DNA from: a virus
DNA: 38,751 nucleotides
IMG/VR virus record: IMGVR_UViG_3300031999_003983
Coordinates: 1 to 38,751 of that record
Direction: 5' to 3' (one strand)
Program-made: the position numbers and the translations under genes
The notes under the pieces: generated by a model
Database searches by the model: none
What the model saw: only the letters and a program-made list of their open reading frames with translations
What the model was told of the DNA's origin: nothing
In this document: positions 17,320 through 28,548 of the stretch, in pieces
Numbering within the stretch: the first letter of the stretch is position 1
Layout of the letters: each line of letters begins with the position of its first letter

Positions 17320-20300
17320 ATGCCCCGACGCTCACCCGAAGAATTGGGCCTCCGCGAACTTGGCGGGGGCGTTGCTGTCGATGAGGCTCCCGACGACACC
17401 GAGCTTGATACTCCGCCTCGGCGCTCGCCAGAACAGCTCGGGTTAAGAGAACTCACCCTTACGCCCCAGGGACTTCCGACGCTAGATCGACCGGCGCGGA
17501 TCCCGCCGATGATGCCTTCGCATCAAGTGGCCCCAACTCCAACCGCCGGCCCGGCCACAGCTCCGACACAAATGAAGGCCCCGGCCTTACTCCCTTCTCA
17601 TCCACGCACGGGCCCAGGAGTGGCGGCTTCACCTTACGACACGCGCTTGGCACCCGACGAAGAAACTCAATTCCAGGGCTGGAAGCAAACCTATGCGCCC
17701 AACGATTCAGGCCAGGATTATGACCTTCGAGGCGCGTTCAAGGCCGGGCTCGAACCGGATCCGGCAACAGGCCATTGGCCGGATACCTACAAGAAACCCA
17801 ATCACCCGACCTTTTCTAACGAGTCGCAATACGCTGATTATGGCCAACCGGGTAGCTGGCGGGGCGAAAAATTCATAGCTCCCGGCGGGAATGCTGAGCC
17901 CCAGGTCGCGCCCGTTGCTCCTAAACCAATTAACCCCAAAGGCCCGACCGCTTTCCCTGTGCTTCCGTTGACAGTAGAGGCCCCTCCTCAACCCGCCCCG
18001 AAAGAAGGACAGACAGCGGATATCAGTCAAAGAGCGGGTGCTCCAATTGCAAGCATCCCCCCGGCTTTAATCAGTCCTGAAAAGGCCCCTTATGGCACGA
18101 CGCCCGAAGAGCAAGTCACCCCGCCCGGAGAGATGCGCGAAGAAGGAACGCCAGATTCCTTCAACCCGGCGGATATGTACTTAAACCGGGACACGATTGC
18201 TCAAAGAGCCTTGGTCGATAATCCTCTTAAGGCGCTGAAGTGGGCGAACGAGCCCCAGGCCGACTTCAAAACCTTGGTTAATTTCACGCTCCCTAAATTC
18301 ACGCCCCAGGATCATCCTATCGTTTACGGGATGCTGGACGCTTTGAGCCGATTCACTACTCCCCAAAACGTCGCTTTCATGGTAGCGACCGGGGGACTCA
18401 CAACACTCGTTAAGGGAACGGCGGGGAGATTGATTTCCTTGGGCTTCGGAGCCGACACGATTGGGGGGATCCTCGATCAGAGCGAACCGATGCGGGATGC
18501 CGCCGACGTGGGGGATTGGGACAAGGTTAATAACATCCTCGGTGAAATGCTCGTAAGTGGAACCCTGGCGCAAAGTTTCATTCGTCATGGCACGGGAGCC
18601 GCCGGCATAGGCCCACAGATCAAAACCCCGGAAATGCCGAGCCTGGGGAAAATGGTCGGGATGCCACAGGAACCAGGCCAACCCTTCCCCGATTGGTACT
18701 TGCGTTATCAGGACATGAGGCGTGCCACCGTGCGCGGCGCTGAGAACCTGGCGGGCACTTTAAGAGGCCCCAAGACTGGCGAGATTCTTCCGGTCGAACC
18801 TCAAGCGCCCCAAGCCCGCCAGCAGCTCACAGAAGGCGAGCCAGTTGTCACCGTCCCCGGCCAAAAGCCAGAAGCCCCGAGGCCAACCCCGGAAACCAAA
18901 GTTGAGACTCCTACTCCATTCGAAGGCCCCGTCGAAAAAACATGGCTCCCCGAGCCGACACAACTAAAGCCAAGTGAAAGGATGCTCCCCGCAGCGGAGC
19001 CCTACGTTGAAAAAATCATCAAAGAGAAAGAGCAAGCTGAAGAACAGCGCGACCAGGCTCGAAGAGAAGCTGAGATCGACCCTCGAACCGGACAAGGCTC
19101 CAATGTCGCTTTTAAGAGAGCTCTTCCCGCAGCGGAAGCGGATCCCAATACCGAAATCGGATCCCTTGACCTAGCGAACCTAAAGGCCCGGAACGATTTG
19201 GACTCGCCAGCCGCCGGCGACAAGGAAATCGAGAACGCCGCCGACGCACTCGTACAGGCCGCGACCGAATTGGGCGTATCGCCCCGCGTCTTTACGCCCA
19301 AAGGGGACGAGCTCTACATATTCGGCCCGAAAGGGGAAATTCAGCCGCTTGTTGATCGAGCCGCCGAGATTTACGGGCGGCGTCAGATCGGTGACAGCAA
19401 ATTCCATAACTTCATTCGTGGCGGAGTAGGCCCAACACTTGAAAAAGCCGATGCCGCGATGAACACGCTCAAGGCCGCCGAGTCAACTGGAAAGTATAGG
19501 AATGTGTCGGAATCTGTTGGAGAGACTCGGAAAGTTGAGCCCCCGGCCCCGGAAGAGCCAAAACCTGAAGCGCCGCGACCAGTGGCCCCGAGCCCTATCC
19601 CTGGGAAGCTCCGCGAGAGCGCCGAGGCCCTTCAAAAGCACATTGACGAAAAGCGCAACCCGGCCACGGCTCAACAGAACCCAACAGCCCGACGGGCGAA
19701 CATCATGGCCGGGATGGCTCAAGAGGCCGAGAATATGGAACGGCTTCAAACCCGGCTCCGCCAGCTCGCCGACGCTCACGAAGCGGGCACCATTCCAAAG
19801 GCCCTTGAGAAGGTCACGACCAAGACACAAGTAGAGAACATCCTCCGTTACCAAAAATATCCGAATGTTACTTTTCACTTTTCGAGCTGGAAGGATATCA
19901 CCGAGGCGACACGCTACACCCAAGACAAAAAGCTGAAGAAGGCTCGGGAAATGGTTAATCCGAACTTTGAACCGGGTGGCTCCCTGGCGCGTCCAAGTTA
20001 TGACGACCTCAAGCATCTTTCCTACGTTGTGAACGCGGTTGGGAAAATGGGTAAACCAGGGAGCCGAGCCGCGAAAGCAATAGCCGAGGACATCGCCAAA
20101 ACCGAAGGGATGGCAAAGGCCGGGATTTACGGGGACATGGACTTCCAGGAAGCCAAGAAGGCCCTGGCGGCCCTGGGTGAGATCAAGAAGGAGCCGCCCC
20201 TTGCTCAAAAGCTCCGGGAGAAAGAGCGCGACCTGATCGGGCGCAAGATCCCCGGATACTTCCCAACTCCAAAGGCCCTGGCCAGTGTAGCACTCGCGCA

Positions 20301-23300
20301 CCTCGACGTTAAGCCGGGCGAGCTCGTTCTTGAACCTTCCGCCGGCAAGGGGAACATGGCCGACGTTCTAAGGGAGGAACAGCCGGGCGCCAGGATCCAC
20401 ACGATTGAACCAAACTCGACACTTCGAGAGATCCTCGACCTCAAGGGCTACGAGAGCAAAGGGCACGACTTCTTAGAGTACAACCCGACAGGCGCCGACC
20501 AACCCGACAAAATCTTAATGAACCCGCCTTTCGAGGAAGGTCAGGAAATGGCGCACGTCAAACACGCCTACGAGATCCTGAAGCCGGGCGGGCGGATTGT
20601 CTCGATTATGAGTGAAGGGCCTTTCTTCCGGGAGGACGCTAAAGCAAGGGCATTCCGAGACTGGCTTGAATCAGTTGAAGGCGAAACCGAAAAGAACCCG
20701 GAGAAGAGTTTCACCGGGGCGGGCGCGGAACGTCAAACCGGCGTCGCTACCCGGACGGTGGTAATAGACAAGCCGGCTGAATTTGTATCGAAATTTGAAA
20801 CCTTCAAGAAACAATGGGCTCCCGAAGTGTGGGATCAGTTATTGAAGGATACCCAATTCAACGAACTCTTAGGGAGCAAGAAATGGGATTTGGCCAAGGC
20901 CAGAGCCGAGGAGCTGACACCCAAAGCCGAGCCGAAGAAGTATGACCAGGGGACAGCCGCCGATGATCTAATCCTTCGCGCTGGAATGACCGTTGTGGGA
21001 GCAAAGGCGAAATGGCTCAAGATGGCCGAGGGAGGCGCGACAGACACAGAGATTAGGGCGCACCTGGCTGACACTCTAGGATTAGGGGGCGGTTACTCTG
21101 ATAAAAACGCAAACGTTCAGTACAAAGGCGGGAAAGAGCCGTTCGTCAAGGTGGACATAGATGGCACAACGGTCGCCATGATGCGCGGGACTAGCTTGGT
21201 GAAATTCTTCCGGGATGCCTTTAAGATTTCCAAGCCGACCGAGCCGAAGGTCGAAGCACCAGGCCCTAAAGAGCCAACCGTGACCTGGATCCCGGAGATC
21301 GACAAACTCATGCGCGTCGGTGTCGCCAATATCGGGCCTCGATCCGCTCGTATGCGTCACGACAAGCCTGAAACAGGTATGTGGGGATTCGAGGGGCTAG
21401 TCAAGGGCAGAGTGGACACAACACTCCCCGTTGTGGACACCTACCCCTCCCGAGAAGAAGCCGTCAAAGCGGCCTATGAGTGGCTGAAGAAACCAACTGA
21501 GCCGGTAGTCGAAAACCCCGCAGCTCCCAAACCGCAAACCTGGCCAGAACATATCCAGAAGAAGTTTGACCAGGCCCGGCGAGAGCTCGAAAAGCGGGAA
21601 GAGGAATTGCCGGCACAGAAGGGCGGGAAGGGTCGCACTTACACCGATCAGGAATGGACAGAAACCCCGCAAGCTCTCATCGACTCGACTCAAATCACTT
21701 TCAAGCCTGGCGAGCTTTACGCTCCCGATGTTCTTCACCTGGGGCCGATGGCGATTAACTTCCTCGCTGGCGTGCGCGGGACACAATACGGGGCAAAAAC
21801 CAGAAAAGGTGTCCGATATACCGGGATCGCTATGCCCAATGAAATCATCAGAGTCCTAGCGAAAAAAACCAAAGAGGATTGGACGAAAGATTTACAGAGC
21901 TTCCTCGCAAAAATTGTCGATGAATGGCCCAAGGGCAAATGGAGATACTTGGGATCGTGGGAAAACTCCATAGACAAGAGATTTGATGCAGTTTACAAAC
22001 GGATGGCTGAAGTCGCTGACGAGCTTCAGGGAATCTTCAGTCGTCCGATGGATTTTAACAACCTCAGAGATATTGTACTCGTTGGCACAGATCGGGATCC
22101 TGCGGAAGTAGAGCGAACCGAGCTCCACGAAAGGGCGCATATCCGGCACCTGAATGTTTTGATTGCCGCCGGGAAATCGAGTTGGACTGACCTGGTTGAC
22201 GCGGATCAGTTTCTCAATTCTCCGCTTGTCATTCAGGCCATAGATCACGCCGGCCTCGATCGGAATTATCCCCGACTGATGCAACCTACGGAAGTAGCCT
22301 CCCGGCTATCCTCGGGCGAGAGCATGGGGCTTTCAATCGAAGAGATGGCCACTGTTTTTACCAAGTTTTTCGATTTACTCTTAGAAAAGCACGGGAATAA
22401 GGCGTACACTGTTCTTGGTGATTTGAACCCTGTTTTAGAGGATGTATTTTATGAAAAGATTGAGCCAAAAATTGAAAGGTGGGAGCGGTGGCACCCGAAG
22501 CCCCAACCGGCTCCAAGGGCTACTTCTAGCATATCAGGCCGGGGGCAGGAACCAACTGTTATCGACCCTGAAGAGCCACTTGGGCCTATCTACCAACAGC
22601 GAGCCCAAGGTGAGCCCCCCGCCGAGCGCGAAGAACTTACTGCATCCGAGAAAGAAACTGTAAGCATCCTGGCCGACCCTGGCCAAGCAATCTTCGATCA
22701 CGGCGTCACGGATCCGGGCAAGTGGCTAAAAGCCATGCGCTCGGAATTCCCGCTCGAAAAGTATGGCTCCGTAAATGATCGAACCCTCCGCGACACGTTC
22801 AAGCAAGTAAAGGCCGCCAGAACCGCACCCGAAGCCCCCAAGGCTTCTCAGAAGTGGATCACAGAGCGCCCGGAGTACAAACCTTCCGACCTAATTGAGA
22901 AGCTAGACACTAATCCCAAGACAGAAGCCCTCGCCATAGTAGAGATTGAGAAGATCGAGGCCCGGCTCGAAAAAATTCAAGCGCCCTTGATGAAGCCCCC
23001 AACCTGGTCGGGTGGACAGCCGACGAGAATACCAGAACAGGAGCTTGTTACTAGCCTGGTCAATCGGGATCCGCACTTTGAAGAGCTTCAGCGCCAAGAA
23101 GGATTGATCCGGGACGAGGGGCAAGCCAAATACGCCGCGTTCAAAGAAAATCTTCCCATCGAAAACTTTAAGCATTTAAGCGATCCCTACAGCTCGATTC
23201 TTAGGTGGGCGAAGGTTGCGGGCGTCGAAAGACTCTCAGAGTGGGACGCGAATCGGCAACGCGCTTTGGCGATCGTGAAGAGCAAGACTAGCGAAATCGG

Positions 23301-26300
23301 ACGCACCCGGAGAAATGCTCATTTGAAATTAGCGCCCTTACGCTCCGCGCTCCGTGAGGCTGAAGATATTGCCCGCAAGATGGAAAAGAACGTCCTCGAA
23401 TTCGAAAAAGAGGCCGTCAAATACTGGCAGCAACAAGGAGCTCGCGGGAAGTTTAACGAGCCCCTAGACGCCGATTTGTCAGATGCTCAACGCAAAGAGC
23501 AAACTGATATTTGGAAATCCTGGGACGAGCACAGGGGGAAGGTGAGCGACGCCCGCCAGGCGCTTCGAAACTATTGGGATGAAACTATTAAACGATTGGG
23601 AGAAGAAGAGCGCCTACTTACGAGCGCCAAAGACAACCTAGAAGAACAGGCGGGTAAGCTCTACGAGGCCGAGAACCGACCACCACCGAGAAAGCCCGGA
23701 GAGCCAGAAGTCAAGCTCACGCCACAGCAACAGAAAAAATATCTTCTCGACCGCGCCGAGAAAGCCTTAGCCGCAGCACCAGAACGCAAACCAGGGGCTT
23801 CACCGGAAGGCAAAAAAGCTCGCCGAAAATGGGTTACTATCGACGTTCCCGGCGATGGCTATTTCAATATCTTCAATGACAAAACATCCCTTTCCGAATT
23901 CATCAAGAAAGCCTCAACTCAATTCCCGACCTCTTCCATCAAGGCACCAGGCCCGCCGGCTAAACCTTCCCGAGCGATTTCGAATAAGCGCGTCACGGGT
24001 GAAGGGATCGAGTATTACAACGAATTCAGGCCACGCCGCCAGGATGTTGTTACGGGCGGGCCAAAGGGCACCAAGAATTCCTACGAAGATGGATTTTACT
24101 CAAACGGCACCTATGCAATTTTGACCGAGCGGCCCAAGGGTATAGAAATAGAGCCCAATGCCAAAATGAAAGGTTTTCTTGAATCGCTTCCTGCGGGCTT
24201 GGTTGAAGGGAAGATTGTTGGCGAATTCCTCCATGAGGGAACCCAGATTCCAATACTTCACGTCACAGCGCCAAGCCGATCCGACCGATTCATTGACCCG
24301 ATCTACGCCGACGCGATTTTGACCAAGTACCCCAATGCAAAAGCATTTGTCCCACAGGATGAGAAAGCGCCGATTTACTTCAAGGAAGGCGGCAAAGTGG
24401 TTGGCATCGTTGGCCCACTTAAAGCACAAACTATCCCGGACAGTTTAGCCGAGCGAGCCCAGGAGCTATCTCCGGGACGCAAGGCCCCTGGTGGAGCCGG
24501 ACAAGCCGACATGGGCGGGTATGCTGACCGTAGCGGGAGTCAGGCTGAACTCTTTATGGACAAAGACGAGGCGGCCAGGCGCGGGCGGCAAGGATACGCC
24601 GGTTATGAACCTACAGGCGGAGAGGCCCCGCCCCCAGGCAAGAGCTACATGGACAAGTCGCGGGGGATTGTCAGGCTCCCGGAGATTATCCAGATCATTC
24701 GAGCCGTCAATGAGAACAAGATCCCCGGAGTTAAGAAATACCTGGCGCAAGCACTCGGGCGCTTTATCTACAACAGCGCCGGAACGGGTGACATTCAAGT
24801 GAAGGCCGACATCTTCCTCGGGGAAATGCTCGACTACGAGCGCACCCGCAACGGAAGCGAATGGGACAAGTACCAAGTCGATATGAGGATTTCGCTGGCC
24901 GGCTTCTACGACCTCAGTACGATCGTATTCAAGCGGGAATGGCGCAAGGGCTTTTGGACGTTTATGACCTACCGCCGGGATCCAACGCTTGCGGCGAAAG
25001 TAATCGCCCATGAACTCGGTCACATGGTCGATTGGCTCGGGGATCCGGCGAATGCCGAACTCGACAAGACTCTAAAGCGCGGGAACATCCTCGGAAGAAT
25101 TGCCACACTCAAAGGCTATCTCAAGGAGAGCTTGCCGGGCGAGCCCCTGGGAGATCAGCCTCTTACTGAAGCCGAAAAGGAAGAGCTTAAGAAGCAAGCG
25201 GCCCGCGAGCTCCGATCCGTCACCGAACAGGAAGTTGACGAGATCATTCGGACGGAAACCAATTACACCCCCGACGACATCCTCGAAATCTTCAAGGGCG
25301 TGGCGGCGGCTTCGACCTTTGACCCTAAACTCTATGAATTCATTCAACGCCTCGACCGGGCTCAGAAGAAACTCTTGATTGTTGAGGCCCTGAAAGGACG
25401 CCTGGCGGAAACCAGGCCCCCCACTCCTAAAAAGATTGTCGAAACCCCGACCGGCAATAAGATCAAGGTCACGGTTGAAGCCACTCCCGAAATGATAGCT
25501 GCCCGCTACCGAGAATTGATCGAGGCAGCCATGAGAGGTCGGCAGCTCCTTGAGCGAAAGGTTGTCACCGAAGAACTCAAGCGCGTGACCCACATTTGGA
25601 AGCCGTTCATGCCCGGCCCGGACAGCTACACGAAATATCGTTACAGCTCCAAAGAGCTCTACGCCGACGCCATTTCTGTGCTGATGAACGAGCCAGAGTT
25701 ATTGAGGAAGGAGGCCCCGACGTTCTATCACGGCCTGTTTGCCTACATAGATCGAAAGCCGGACGTGAAGGACTTGTATGACGCGATTCAAGAGAAAATG
25801 GGAAACACCGGCGACTTGATGAATGATCGGCTCTCGGACACTTACGATATGTTCAAGCGTGGGTATGAGATCCGCGAGAACTTAAATATCCAGCAGCAAT
25901 CAATGGTTGAGTCGATTAAAGACTCCACGGCTCGCTACTTCATTGACAAGATGCACGGGCCTTTGAAGCACATTCGAGTCATGGAAAAGGCTGGCGGAGA
26001 AAGGGCCGCACTCGCCAAGGAAGCCCGCTACCAGCTAGAGGAAATCGCGCACCTGGCCGATGCGGTTGAGAACTACTTTTATCATATTGGGGATGCGGTA
26101 CTGAAGCCGCTCAAGAAGAATGGGATCACCCCGGAGCAACTAGGAGCATACCTTTTCTTGCGTCGGGCCGCCTTCGAGCGCACAGAGATTGCTAACCCCC
26201 TGGGCCAAGTTGAGGCCGAGGCCAAACTGACCTTGGAAGGGCTTAAGCATTCAATGGGAGAGGAAAAATTCCAGCAATTGAAGGATATCGCCGAAGCATG

Positions 26301-28548
26301 GCGCGAAGTCAGGCAGCGATATATCATCCCGGAGATTGTTCAAAGCCGCTTTTACAGCGAGGAGATTAACGACCTATTCCTAAACAACCCACACTATGTT
26401 CGTTTTAACGTGCTTCATCACCTGGAAAAGGCTTTTGGCACCGGCGTCACCGTCAAGATTCATAAGCAGTACGGCACCTTGTCAGAGATCGAGAATCCAT
26501 TCGTTGCGACTGTGCTCCAAGATATTGCCATGATGAGAGCCACGGCAATCAACAACGCCAAGCGGGCGCTTGTCAGGGACGTGCTTACTCCCCTGGGTGA
26601 GGCGAAACAGCCTGAAATGAAGTGGAACTCTTTTACTTACCGCAACGAACCCAAGCAACCACGGGATCCACACAAGGACTTGCTCCCAGTCATGGAGAAC
26701 GGCAAGTTGGTTTTCTACGAAGTCAGCCGGGAGATTACTCGCTCGTTCGAAAATGAGCCCTACGTTGCCAAGATGATCGGACGGGTTTGGGGGATGATGA
26801 ACCAGGGGATCCGCGACCTACTTGTGAGCCGTAACCCGATTTGGATGGCTCGAAACGTGATCCGCGATTTGCGATCGACCTACAAGAACCTGTCGGAAAT
26901 CCCGGTATATGGGGATCCCGTACTCGGTCGAATCTACCTCGAATCCTTCAAGGAAGCCTGGAAGGACACGATGAGCGCCCCCGAGTGGCTGCCTCAAGGA
27001 ATGCGGTGGGAGCATGAACGCTCTCAAACGATCAGTGAGATGAGAGCCGGGAAAATGCTTATCCCTGGGCGTATGTACGAGTCAAGCATCGTGAAATCGA
27101 GCGGGAACGCCGAGAACGAAGTTGAGCGCATGGCCCGGAGCTTTGAAATCGACCTGGGAGACACTATCGACATCAACGCCGGCCAATCGGCGCGGGCCTT
27201 GGAAAGTGTGAAGTGGGTTTATGACGTGCTCGGGCGTATGGGCCAGGTCAGCGAAATGACCGGGAAAATCGCCGGCTACAAGTATCTGAAAGAGAATCAA
27301 ACGCTGATTCTAGATGAGGGAGTTCCCGGCGGGATGCGTTTACTATCCGGGCGCTCTAATCGTGAGATTGGGCACATGGTCAGGGGCCGGGTATCAACGC
27401 CGGACATCAAGAAGCAAGGTGAAGGCCAGGCGGTAACGAATAACCTTTTCCTTTTTTCGAACGTCAACGCCCAGGGGCTTCGAGCCGCATGGGAGAGTTT
27501 CAAAGAGGACAAGAGCGGGTATGCCTGGAAAACCATCGCCACGAACATGCTCCCGAAAATCATTATGTGGGGTATCGGGCTCGGGATCGCTGGCGGATTT
27601 GCCAGACGCATGACTCAAGGAATCAGCGAATACGACAAGGCCGCCTATACCATCGTTCCGCTCGGGATGAACAGCAAGGGGAAAACGGTTTACATGAGGA
27701 TCCCGGAAGATTACGAGGGCCAGTATTGGGGTGCGATCACTTGGATGATGCTCAAAGGCCAGGTCACGGACGCGGGCGGTGTTATCAATCAGACAGGTGA
27801 ACAAGTACCGTGGAATATATCGAAACTCAATCCCTTCCTGAAAGTAGCCTGGAGGCTGTACCAGTATTACGGCTTGGGTGTCAACCCTACCGATGAATGG
27901 CGCGGGAGAACTATCATGCCCGACCGGGTATTCAAAGCCGGCGGAAGCGGCGCGAATATCGCCCTTGGAAAGCAAGTTTGGAAGGATCTTGGTGGCTCTG
28001 TTCTATGGAATCCTTCGGGCTTCGAACTTAATACTGACGAAGGTGTATGGGAAAGGATTTCAAGACACCTACCTTTCAACATCCTCGGCACTTTCATTAA
28101 GGTGAGCGATCAGGGAATCGGCGACCAGCTCGATCAAATCAGCAAAGCAACCACGAAAGAAACGGCCAAGCGCCAAGTCGATGTTCAGTCCCGGATCATC
28201 AAGTCAATCAACGCGGCCCAGGGAAAGCCAAATCGCGGGGATATGCGGCAGCTTTTCTTACAGTTGCGACACGACCAACTCTTGACGCCCCAAACCAGTG
28301 AGAAAGAGTTTGAAACCCGGTACTTCTCTTTCGCAACGCGGGCTCAGGCGAATCCCTACCTGAACCGGATCATCAACGCTACATCGAACCTTGAGAAGGA
28401 AAGGCTTTTGACCGAGTACAGGAAAATGCTGACACCCCAGGAATATGATGACATTATCAATCGGCTGGCAACGTCGCGGGCGGAGCCGAGTGTTCGAAAA
28501 GTTGAAAAGCAATCGCGGCGAGAACCTTCAGTCCAACCAGTGAGGTAA
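17320..28548 (+). CDS. Giant polyvalent virion protein: GGDEF-like, adenine MTase, two HExxH motifs, LPD38-like end
   Basis: A 3742-residue multi-domain protein of the polyvalent type, thought to be packed in the particle and ejected with DNA. Residues about 106-180 hold the 'NDSGQDYDLRGAFKAGL' phage module, followed by a hydrophobic patch at 345-385. Residues 585-690 look like a GGDEF domain (DPRTG, SLDLANLKARND, GD, KGDELYIF). Residues 970-1145 are an N6-adenine methyltransferase: motif I is LEPSAGKG near 1005 and the catalytic motif is NPPF at 1068-1071. HERAH at 1603-1607 and HELGH at 2564-2568 are zinc-peptidase motifs; ELYAD at 2779 may give the third ligand of the second. Residues 2265-2364 may be sliding-clamp-like. 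The C-terminal 500 residues resemble LPD38, with a hydrophobic helix near 3411. Long charged linkers join these parts. The gene starts flush with the previous stop. Confidence 0.8.
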   Translation: MPRRSPEELGLRELGGGVAVDEAPDDTELDTPPRRSPEQLGLRELTLTPQGLPTLDRPARIPPMMPSHQVAPTPTAGPATAPTQMKAPALLPSHPRTGPGVAASPYDTRLAPDEETQFQGWKQTYAPNDSGQDYDLRGAFKAGLEPDPATGHWPDTYKKPNHPTFSNESQYADYGQPGSWRGEKFIAPGGNAEPQVAPVAPKPINPKGPTAFPVLPLTVEAPPQPAPKEGQTADISQRAGAPIASIPPALISPEKAPYGTTPEEQVTPPGEMREEGTPDSFNPADMYLNRDTIAQRALVDNPLKALKWANEPQADFKTLVNFTLPKFTPQDHPIVYGMLDALSRFTTPQNVAFMVATGGLTTLVKGTAGRLISLGFGADTIGGILDQSEPMRDAADVGDWDKVNNILGEMLVSGTLAQSFIRHGTGAAGIGPQIKTPEMPSLGKMVGMPQEPGQPFPDWYLRYQDMRRATVRGAENLAGTLRGPKTGEILPVEPQAPQARQQLTEGEPVVTVPGQKPEAPRPTPETKVETPTPFEGPVEKTWLPEPTQLKPSERMLPAAEPYVEKIIKEKEQAEEQRDQARREAEIDPRTGQGSNVAFKRALPAAEADPNTEIGSLDLANLKARNDLDSPAAGDKEIENAADALVQAATELGVSPRVFTPKGDELYIFGPKGEIQPLVDRAAEIYGRRQIGDSKFHNFIRGGVGPTLEKADAAMNTLKAAESTGKYRNVSESVGETRKVEPPAPEEPKPEAPRPVAPSPIPGKLRESAEALQKHIDEKRNPATAQQNPTARRANIMAGMAQEAENMERLQTRLRQLADAHEAGTIPKALEKVTTKTQVENILRYQKYPNVTFHFSSWKDITEATRYTQDKKLKKAREMVNPNFEPGGSLARPSYDDLKHLSYVVNAVGKMGKPGSRAAKAIAEDIAKTEGMAKAGIYGDMDFQEAKKALAALGEIKKEPPLAQKLREKERDLIGRKIPGYFPTPKALASVALAHLDVKPGELVLEPSAGKGNMADVLREEQPGARIHTIEPNSTLREILDLKGYESKGHDFLEYNPTGADQPDKILMNPPFEEGQEMAHVKHAYEILKPGGRIVSIMSEGPFFREDAKARAFRDWLESVEGETEKNPEKSFTGAGAERQTGVATRTVVIDKPAEFVSKFETFKKQWAPEVWDQLLKDTQFNELLGSKKWDLAKARAEELTPKAEPKKYDQGTAADDLILRAGMTVVGAKAKWLKMAEGGATDTEIRAHLADTLGLGGGYSDKNANVQYKGGKEPFVKVDIDGTTVAMMRGTSLVKFFRDAFKISKPTEPKVEAPGPKEPTVTWIPEIDKLMRVGVANIGPRSARMRHDKPETGMWGFEGLVKGRVDTTLPVVDTYPSREEAVKAAYEWLKKPTEPVVENPAAPKPQTWPEHIQKKFDQARRELEKREEELPAQKGGKGRTYTDQEWTETPQALIDSTQITFKPGELYAPDVLHLGPMAINFLAGVRGTQYGAKTRKGVRYTGIAMPNEIIRVLAKKTKEDWTKDLQSFLAKIVDEWPKGKWRYLGSWENSIDKRFDAVYKRMAEVADELQGIFSRPMDFNNLRDIVLVGTDRDPAEVERTELHERAHIRHLNVLIAAGKSSWTDLVDADQFLNSPLVIQAIDHAGLDRNYPRLMQPTEVASRLSSGESMGLSIEEMATVFTKFFDLLLEKHGNKAYTVLGDLNPVLEDVFYEKIEPKIERWERWHPKPQPAPRATSSISGRGQEPTVIDPEEPLGPIYQQRAQGEPPAEREELTASEKETVSILADPGQAIFDHGVTDPGKWLKAMRSEFPLEKYGSVNDRTLRDTFKQVKAARTAPEAPKASQKWITERPEYKPSDLIEKLDTNPKTEALAIVEIEKIEARLEKIQAPLMKPPTWSGGQPTRIPEQELVTSLVNRDPHFEELQRQEGLIRDEGQAKYAAFKENLPIENFKHLSDPYSSILRWAKVAGVERLSEWDANRQRALAIVKSKTSEIGRTRRNAHLKLAPLRSALREAEDIARKMEKNVLEFEKEAVKYWQQQGARGKFNEPLDADLSDAQRKEQTDIWKSWDEHRGKVSDARQALRNYWDETIKRLGEEERLLTSAKDNLEEQAGKLYEAENRPPPRKPGEPEVKLTPQQQKKYLLDRAEKALAAAPERKPGASPEGKKARRKWVTIDVPGDGYFNIFNDKTSLSEFIKKASTQFPTSSIKAPGPPAKPSRAISNKRVTGEGIEYYNEFRPRRQDVVTGGPKGTKNSYEDGFYSNGTYAILTERPKGIEIEPNAKMKGFLESLPAGLVEGKIVGEFLHEGTQIPILHVTAPSRSDRFIDPIYADAILTKYPNAKAFVPQDEKAPIYFKEGGKVVGIVGPLKAQTIPDSLAERAQELSPGRKAPGGAGQADMGGYADRSGSQAELFMDKDEAARRGRQGYAGYEPTGGEAPPPGKSYMDKSRGIVRLPEIIQIIRAVNENKIPGVKKYLAQALGRFIYNSAGTGDIQVKADIFLGEMLDYERTRNGSEWDKYQVDMRISLAGFYDLSTIVFKREWRKGFWTFMTYRRDPTLAAKVIAHELGHMVDWLGDPANAELDKTLKRGNILGRIATLKGYLKESLPGEPLGDQPLTEAEKEELKKQAARELRSVTEQEVDEIIRTETNYTPDDILEIFKGVAAASTFDPKLYEFIQRLDRAQKKLLIVEALKGRLAETRPPTPKKIVETPTGNKIKVTVEATPEMIAARYRELIEAAMRGRQLLERKVVTEELKRVTHIWKPFMPGPDSYTKYRYSSKELYADAISVLMNEPELLRKEAPTFYHGLFAYIDRKPDVKDLYDAIQEKMGNTGDLMNDRLSDTYDMFKRGYEIRENLNIQQQSMVESIKDSTARYFIDKMHGPLKHIRVMEKAGGERAALAKEARYQLEEIAHLADAVENYFYHIGDAVLKPLKKNGITPEQLGAYLFLRRAAFERTEIANPLGQVEAEAKLTLEGLKHSMGEEKFQQLKDIAEAWREVRQRYIIPEIVQSRFYSEEINDLFLNNPHYVRFNVLHHLEKAFGTGVTVKIHKQYGTLSEIENPFVATVLQDIAMMRATAINNAKRALVRDVLTPLGEAKQPEMKWNSFTYRNEPKQPRDPHKDLLPVMENGKLVFYEVSREITRSFENEPYVAKMIGRVWGMMNQGIRDLLVSRNPIWMARNVIRDLRSTYKNLSEIPVYGDPVLGRIYLESFKEAWKDTMSAPEWLPQGMRWEHERSQTISEMRAGKMLIPGRMYESSIVKSSGNAENEVERMARSFEIDLGDTIDINAGQSARALESVKWVYDVLGRMGQVSEMTGKIAGYKYLKENQTLILDEGVPGGMRLLSGRSNREIGHMVRGRVSTPDIKKQGEGQAVTNNLFLFSNVNAQGLRAAWESFKEDKSGYAWKTIATNMLPKIIMWGIGLGIAGGFARRMTQGISEYDKAAYTIVPLGMNSKGKTVYMRIPEDYEGQYWGAITWMMLKGQVTDAGGVINQTGEQVPWNISKLNPFLKVAWRLYQYYGLGVNPTDEWRGRTIMPDRVFKAGGSGANIALGKQVWKDLGGSVLWNPSGFELNTDEGVWERISRHLPFNILGTFIKVSDQGIGDQLDQISKATTKETAKRQVDVQSRIIKSINAAQGKPNRGDMRQLFLQLRHDQLLTPQTSEKEFETRYFSFATRAQANPYLNRIINATSNLEKERLLTEYRKMLTPQEYDDIINRLATSRAEPSVRKVEKQSRREPSVQPVR

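Follow-up and report, generated by a model that had tools for sequence, protein, structure and literature searches.

GGDEF domains were explicitly reported in polyvalent proteins by Iyer et al. in 2017, and the packaging and injection of such proteins were inferred in the same study (PMC5512222). One of the giant phage polypeptides in that report, WP_004096050.1 of Acetonema longum, combines a GGDEF domain with an adenine methyltransferase and a zincin, and additionally has SWI2/SNF2 and ART domains (PMC5512222). Other phage GGDEF proteins are free-standing. Yuavirus members (YuA gp44, PaSz-4 and AN14) and Bordetella Vojvodinavirus encode a short GGDEF domain as a separate gene of about 156 aa, and in the Pseudomonas phages examined this gene adjoins an annotated antirestriction gene. 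Bordetella phage LK3 has a free-standing GGDEF gene of the Yuavirus kind, and its lysogens form more biofilm (PMC8471281).

Here we describe a viral DNA stretch of 38,751 nucleotides (the window; IMG/VR record IMGVR_UViG_3300031999_003983, positions 1 to 38,751) in which a GGDEF domain sits in the N-terminal part of a giant polyvalent protein. By domain content the protein is likened to the A. longum polypeptide, with which it shares the GGDEF, adenine methyltransferase and zincin combination. As polyvalent GGDEF domains have been known since 2017, the window is a fresh example of a known theme; a preliminary description of this DNA had called such a domain unusual, which overstates the case given those reports and the free-standing genes of Yuavirus and Vojvodinavirus. 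The features discussed below are as follows.

17320..28548, + strand: open reading frame of a 3742-aa multidomain (polyvalent-type) protein, with a C-terminal core of about 1050 aa found in 41 other giant phage ORFs.
18994..19071, + strand: charged helix, residues about 559-584, entering the GGDEF domain (from sequence; helix 5-30 of the AlphaFold2 model).
About 19042..19491, + strand: GGDEF domain, residues about 575-724 (from HMM, fold and homologues).
19078..19092, + strand: DPRTG, residues 587-591, the equivalent of D-x-L-T-G (from sequence).
19165..19221, + strand: LDLANLKARND (residues 616-626, nt 19165-19197) and a following AAGD, with metal-site D617, K622, and guanine-site N625 and D634; the GD is residues 633-634 (invariant columns of an eight-sequence alignment).
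19300..19314, + strand: KGDEL, residues 661-665, a degenerate GGDEF signature with D663 and E664 conserved (from sequence and alignment).
Residues 701-721, + strand: last strand and helix of the GGDEF domain, GGVGPTLEKADAAMNTLKAAE (from sequence).
20155..20800, + strand: N6-adenine-type DNA methyltransferase domain (PHROG matches to E = 6e-83; weak Pfam MTS/Methyltransf_23 matches).
20521-20532, + strand: NPPF motif of the methyltransferase (from sequence).
22126..22140, + strand: HERAH, a possible zincin metallopeptidase motif (from sequence only).
25009..25023, + strand: HELGH, a zincin-like metallopeptidase motif in the conserved core, kept in the related giant proteins L019 and L021.

Several unrelated parts are thus found in one polypeptide, namely the GGDEF domain, the methyltransferase, the HELGH zincin motif and the shared C-terminal core. 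Together with a second HExxH stretch and a late-gene position, they identify the product, as read from its sequence, as a polyvalent protein. HERAH is that second HExxH, lying about 960 residues N-terminal of HELGH, and may mark another zincin. Relatives of the methyltransferase occur in phage proteins, some of them annotated as structural, and the domain at 20155-20800 shares 48% identity with gp43 of Salisaeta icosahedral phage 1; a seed scan for the methyltransferase confirmed nothing. Upstream and on the same strand, 4129-5403 matches a major head protein (E 1e-8) and other genes more weakly resemble tail-fibre, structural and adaptor proteins, which places the giant ORF among late or virion genes, the similarity scores of these neighbours being modest. 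Judged from this context and from its class, the product is probably a virion protein that is delivered with the phage DNA. No EAL, HD-GYP or PilZ domain was found among the window ORFs scanned with Pfam.

In direct Pfam, NCBIfam and PHROG scans the window domain itself had no significant match, and its profile similarity to the GGDEF superfamily, indirect but firm, is established via its nearest relative and through profiles. That relative, L002, lies in another giant phage protein (IMGVR_UViG_3300005458_000025, 2864 aa), clears the Pfam GGDEF cut-off (32.6 versus 23.8 bits) and is 38% identical to the window domain (40% by tblastn, E 2e-27); whole-protein blastp of the two gave E values of 2e-24 to 6e-24 over 575-841. 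Further relatives were found in three giant phage proteins (L019, L020 and L021), among Yuavirus and Bordetella phage proteins (L003, L004, L007, L017 and L018) and in a 278-aa Nomurabacteria protein (L015), and those checked against PF00990 all clear its cut-off. In viral contigs, scans with narrow peptide seeds found L002 alone; the scan of genomes gave a single locus, L015. Two matches from faecal "phage" sequences (H1 and H7) were set aside, as they resemble ordinary bacterial genes.

An HMM built without the window scored the full protein at 57.0 bits and the domain at 61.7, whereas the highest-scoring of 1000 shuffles reached 6.5. When L002 was also left out the scores were 30.2 and 36.4 (best shuffle 7.5), and without both L002 and L015 they were 18.5 and 25.6 (best shuffle 4.7), so that the gap becomes smaller but persists. 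In the PDB, a two-sequence profile of the window and L002 retrieves GGDEF proteins with a best E of 1.4e-5; of 287 genomes from the phylum to which L015 belongs, 46 contain a significant match to it. An eight-sequence profile matched 49 sequences, nearly all carrying a GGDEF-protein or cyclase annotation, at a best E of 2e-21. Residues from about 575 to 724 are a genuine GGDEF domain and no chance motif.

The predicted structure agrees with this. AlphaFold2 gave a pLDDT of 66 and a pTM of 0.57 from a three-sequence alignment, and 82.5 and 0.71 from an eight-sequence alignment; because these alignments include two and seven Pfam-positive GGDEF relatives, respectively, the models partly depend on the sequence evidence. 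For both models, each of the top 50 PDB matches listed by Foldseek is a GGDEF protein, with best E values of 7.9e-7 and 1.1e-9, respectively. The top of a viral-library search is mostly taken up by phage GGDEF proteins already known (phage G gp350, SP-15 and Bordetella phage CN1). The preliminary description had recognised a diguanylate cyclase-like domain and had proposed a comparison with palm folds: HMM, homologues and fold bear out the GGDEF identity, the prediction is a palm of the GGDEF type, and the motifs it named (DPRTG, LDLANLKARND, GD and KGDEL) all occur in the order given. The span it assigned was too short: the preceding helix begins near residue 560, and the closing strand and helix lie beyond that span.

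The window domain resembles PleD, WspR, DgcB, DgcR and SadC in fold, in motif order, in its metal and guanine residues and in the preceding charged helix, which recalls the stalk helix found in diguanylate cyclases. It differs from them in having KGDEL, in lacking the RxxD inhibition site (I-site) and in being somewhat shorter, and, unlike the bacterial diguanylate cyclases with solved structures, it has no receiver or membrane sensor part. Nine positions are invariant in eight divergent sequences (D617, K622, N625, D626, G633, D634, G662, D663 and E664), and by motif position they include what we take to be the metal ligands and guanine contacts of PleD. Among them are the metal-binding residues D617 and E664 and the guanine-binding residues N625 and D634, and the loss of the Asp and Asp-Glu in homologues, named beforehand as evidence against the assignment, did not occur.

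The canonical GG(D/E)EF signature is absent from the window domain, in which, as had been noted, Lys replaces the first Gly; the preliminary description suggested that this might inactivate the domain or alter its substrate. This motif position varies freely among the phage relatives: it is K in the window, H in L002 and L015, S in L019, L020 and Yuavirus, A in L018, and G in L021 and L067. The Yuavirus and Vojvodinavirus proteins, with SGDEF or AGDEF, share a non-Gly first residue and the same catalytic residues with the window. The free-standing Nomurabacteria protein (L015:9767-10603) reads VFHPHGDEF, and its HPHGDE motif is common to phage L002. In the window, T659 stands in place of the usual Arg two residues before the motif, L665 in place of Phe, and SP in place of the usual GH before GD. 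An RxxD site upstream of the signature is present in many diguanylate cyclases, not in all; here GVSP (residues 652-655) occupies that place, 9 to 6 residues before K661.

The domain is sparsely distributed on its own backbone. The C-terminal core occurs in 41 giant IMG/VR ORFs besides the window, several of them fragments, and only three of these records have the GGDEF domain (L050/L021, with GGDEF; L068/L019, with SGDEF; and L067, with GGDEF). A radical-SAM (QueE-like) match, L050:3928-5001, lies directly upstream of the GGDEF-bearing giant protein. The closest GGDEF domain is that of L002, yet its backbone is different: the 2864-aa protein (L002:1557-10151) carries a ddrB-ParB domain, matches SLT and GNAT weakly, and has a GGDEF domain whose motif is HGDEY. 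In the tree the window pairs with L002 (99/98), whereas L019, L020, L021 and the Yuavirus-type proteins form a separate group (99/96). A same-backbone clade of window, L019 and L021 was rejected (p-AU 0.008); one clade of window, L002, L019, L020, L021 and the Yuavirus-type proteins, with L067 left out, was not (p-AU 0.36). The tree has long branches, and its groups were defined once a first tree had been inspected; subject to this caveat, the tests favour an exchange of this optional GGDEF module between unrelated giant-protein backbones.

Could the domain be something other than a GGDEF domain? That its motifs arose by chance in an unrelated domain would fit the want of a Pfam or NCBIfam match for the domain itself, and is refuted by the homologues, the scores against 1000 shuffles and the fold, leaving it a negligible probability. 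Another palm polymerase that merely resembles GGDEF, such as an mCpol/Cas10-like oligonucleotide cyclase, would explain the imperfect motif, and mCpol, Cas10 and GGDEF have one palm fold in common (PMC12657218). The best PDB fold matches listed are all GGDEF proteins, the sequence profiles retrieve GGDEF proteins, and DxLTG, LKxxND..GD and xGDE are motifs of the GGDEF type; the fold matches and HMM controls strongly disfavour this identity, which we regard as highly improbable.

The biochemistry is a closer matter. A degenerate, non-catalytic GGDEF domain might bind GTP or c-di-GMP as a sensor or sponge, or serve as a regulatory or structural domain of the polyvalent protein. A receptor or regulator role is known for many degenerate GGDEF domains (reviewed in PMC3974145). 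KGDEL, T659 in place of Arg and the lost GH pair agree with such a role and are warnings against catalysis, against which the lost Phe counts too. Against it stand the metal Asp and Glu and the guanine Asn and Asp, which are kept at low identity and which a purely structural role does not need, and the missing I-site, without which any binding would therefore need the active site. In VCA0965, A, G, H and M are tolerated at the first motif position while most other substitutions abolish activity, and non-Gly first residues, His included, can be active (PMC3974145). By this tolerance, although it is context-dependent, activity is possible for an HGDE form like that of L002 and doubtful for KGDE; the literature searched documents no activity of a KGDE form. 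Diguanylate cyclases act as dimers, and a 3742-aa protein would have to dimerise as well, which counts against catalysis. From the sequence we give a catalytic cyclic-dinucleotide synthase close to an even chance and rate a non-catalytic nucleotide-binding domain as a serious possibility somewhat short of even; some other biochemistry is improbable.

On balance we lean towards an exchangeable GGDEF module in a polyvalent protein that would be injected, would make or bind a guanine cyclic dinucleotide and would thereby disturb host signalling. Its computed part consists of the homology, the fold, the conserved metal and guanine residues, the absent I-site and the modular occurrence. The giant protein would be made late, packaged and then ejected with the DNA, as expected of its class, and would be processed, probably by its own metallopeptidase domain or domains, with the zincin freeing the GGDEF domain. 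The freed domain may then bind GTP and make a guanine cyclic dinucleotide or, if dead, bind one, so that host second-messenger or nucleotide-based defence signalling would be disturbed early in infection. An injected nucleotide-binding domain or cyclic-dinucleotide synthase perturbing host signalling is the most likely role, in line with the prediction made for the class in 2017 (PMC5512222), and the biofilm effect of LK3 is a suggestive, non-decisive parallel; the free-standing proteins belong to another tree group than the window, and theirs is not a domain of a giant late protein. It is also conceivable, if very unlikely, that the injected K/H-G-D-E lineage produces a cyclic dinucleotide of non-standard type, which would occupy the sensors of host defence (CBASS, Panoptes or CRISPR-type effectors) and act there as decoy or antagonist.

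The KGDEL variant and the module exchange were not met in the literature searched, and the kind itself is already described; the window domain is thus a new, diverged member of it. No biochemical test of the 2017 proposal was found in the literature searched, and the compact domain, at about 150 aa, is directly assayable. Few GGDEF domains are borne by phages, and this lineage, divergent in sequence and conserved in its active-site residues, adds to them; it also points to a GGDEF domain that moves between unrelated giant-protein backbones. As such it supports the 2017 proposal, under which enzymes that act on cyclic-nucleotide signalling are injected by phages.
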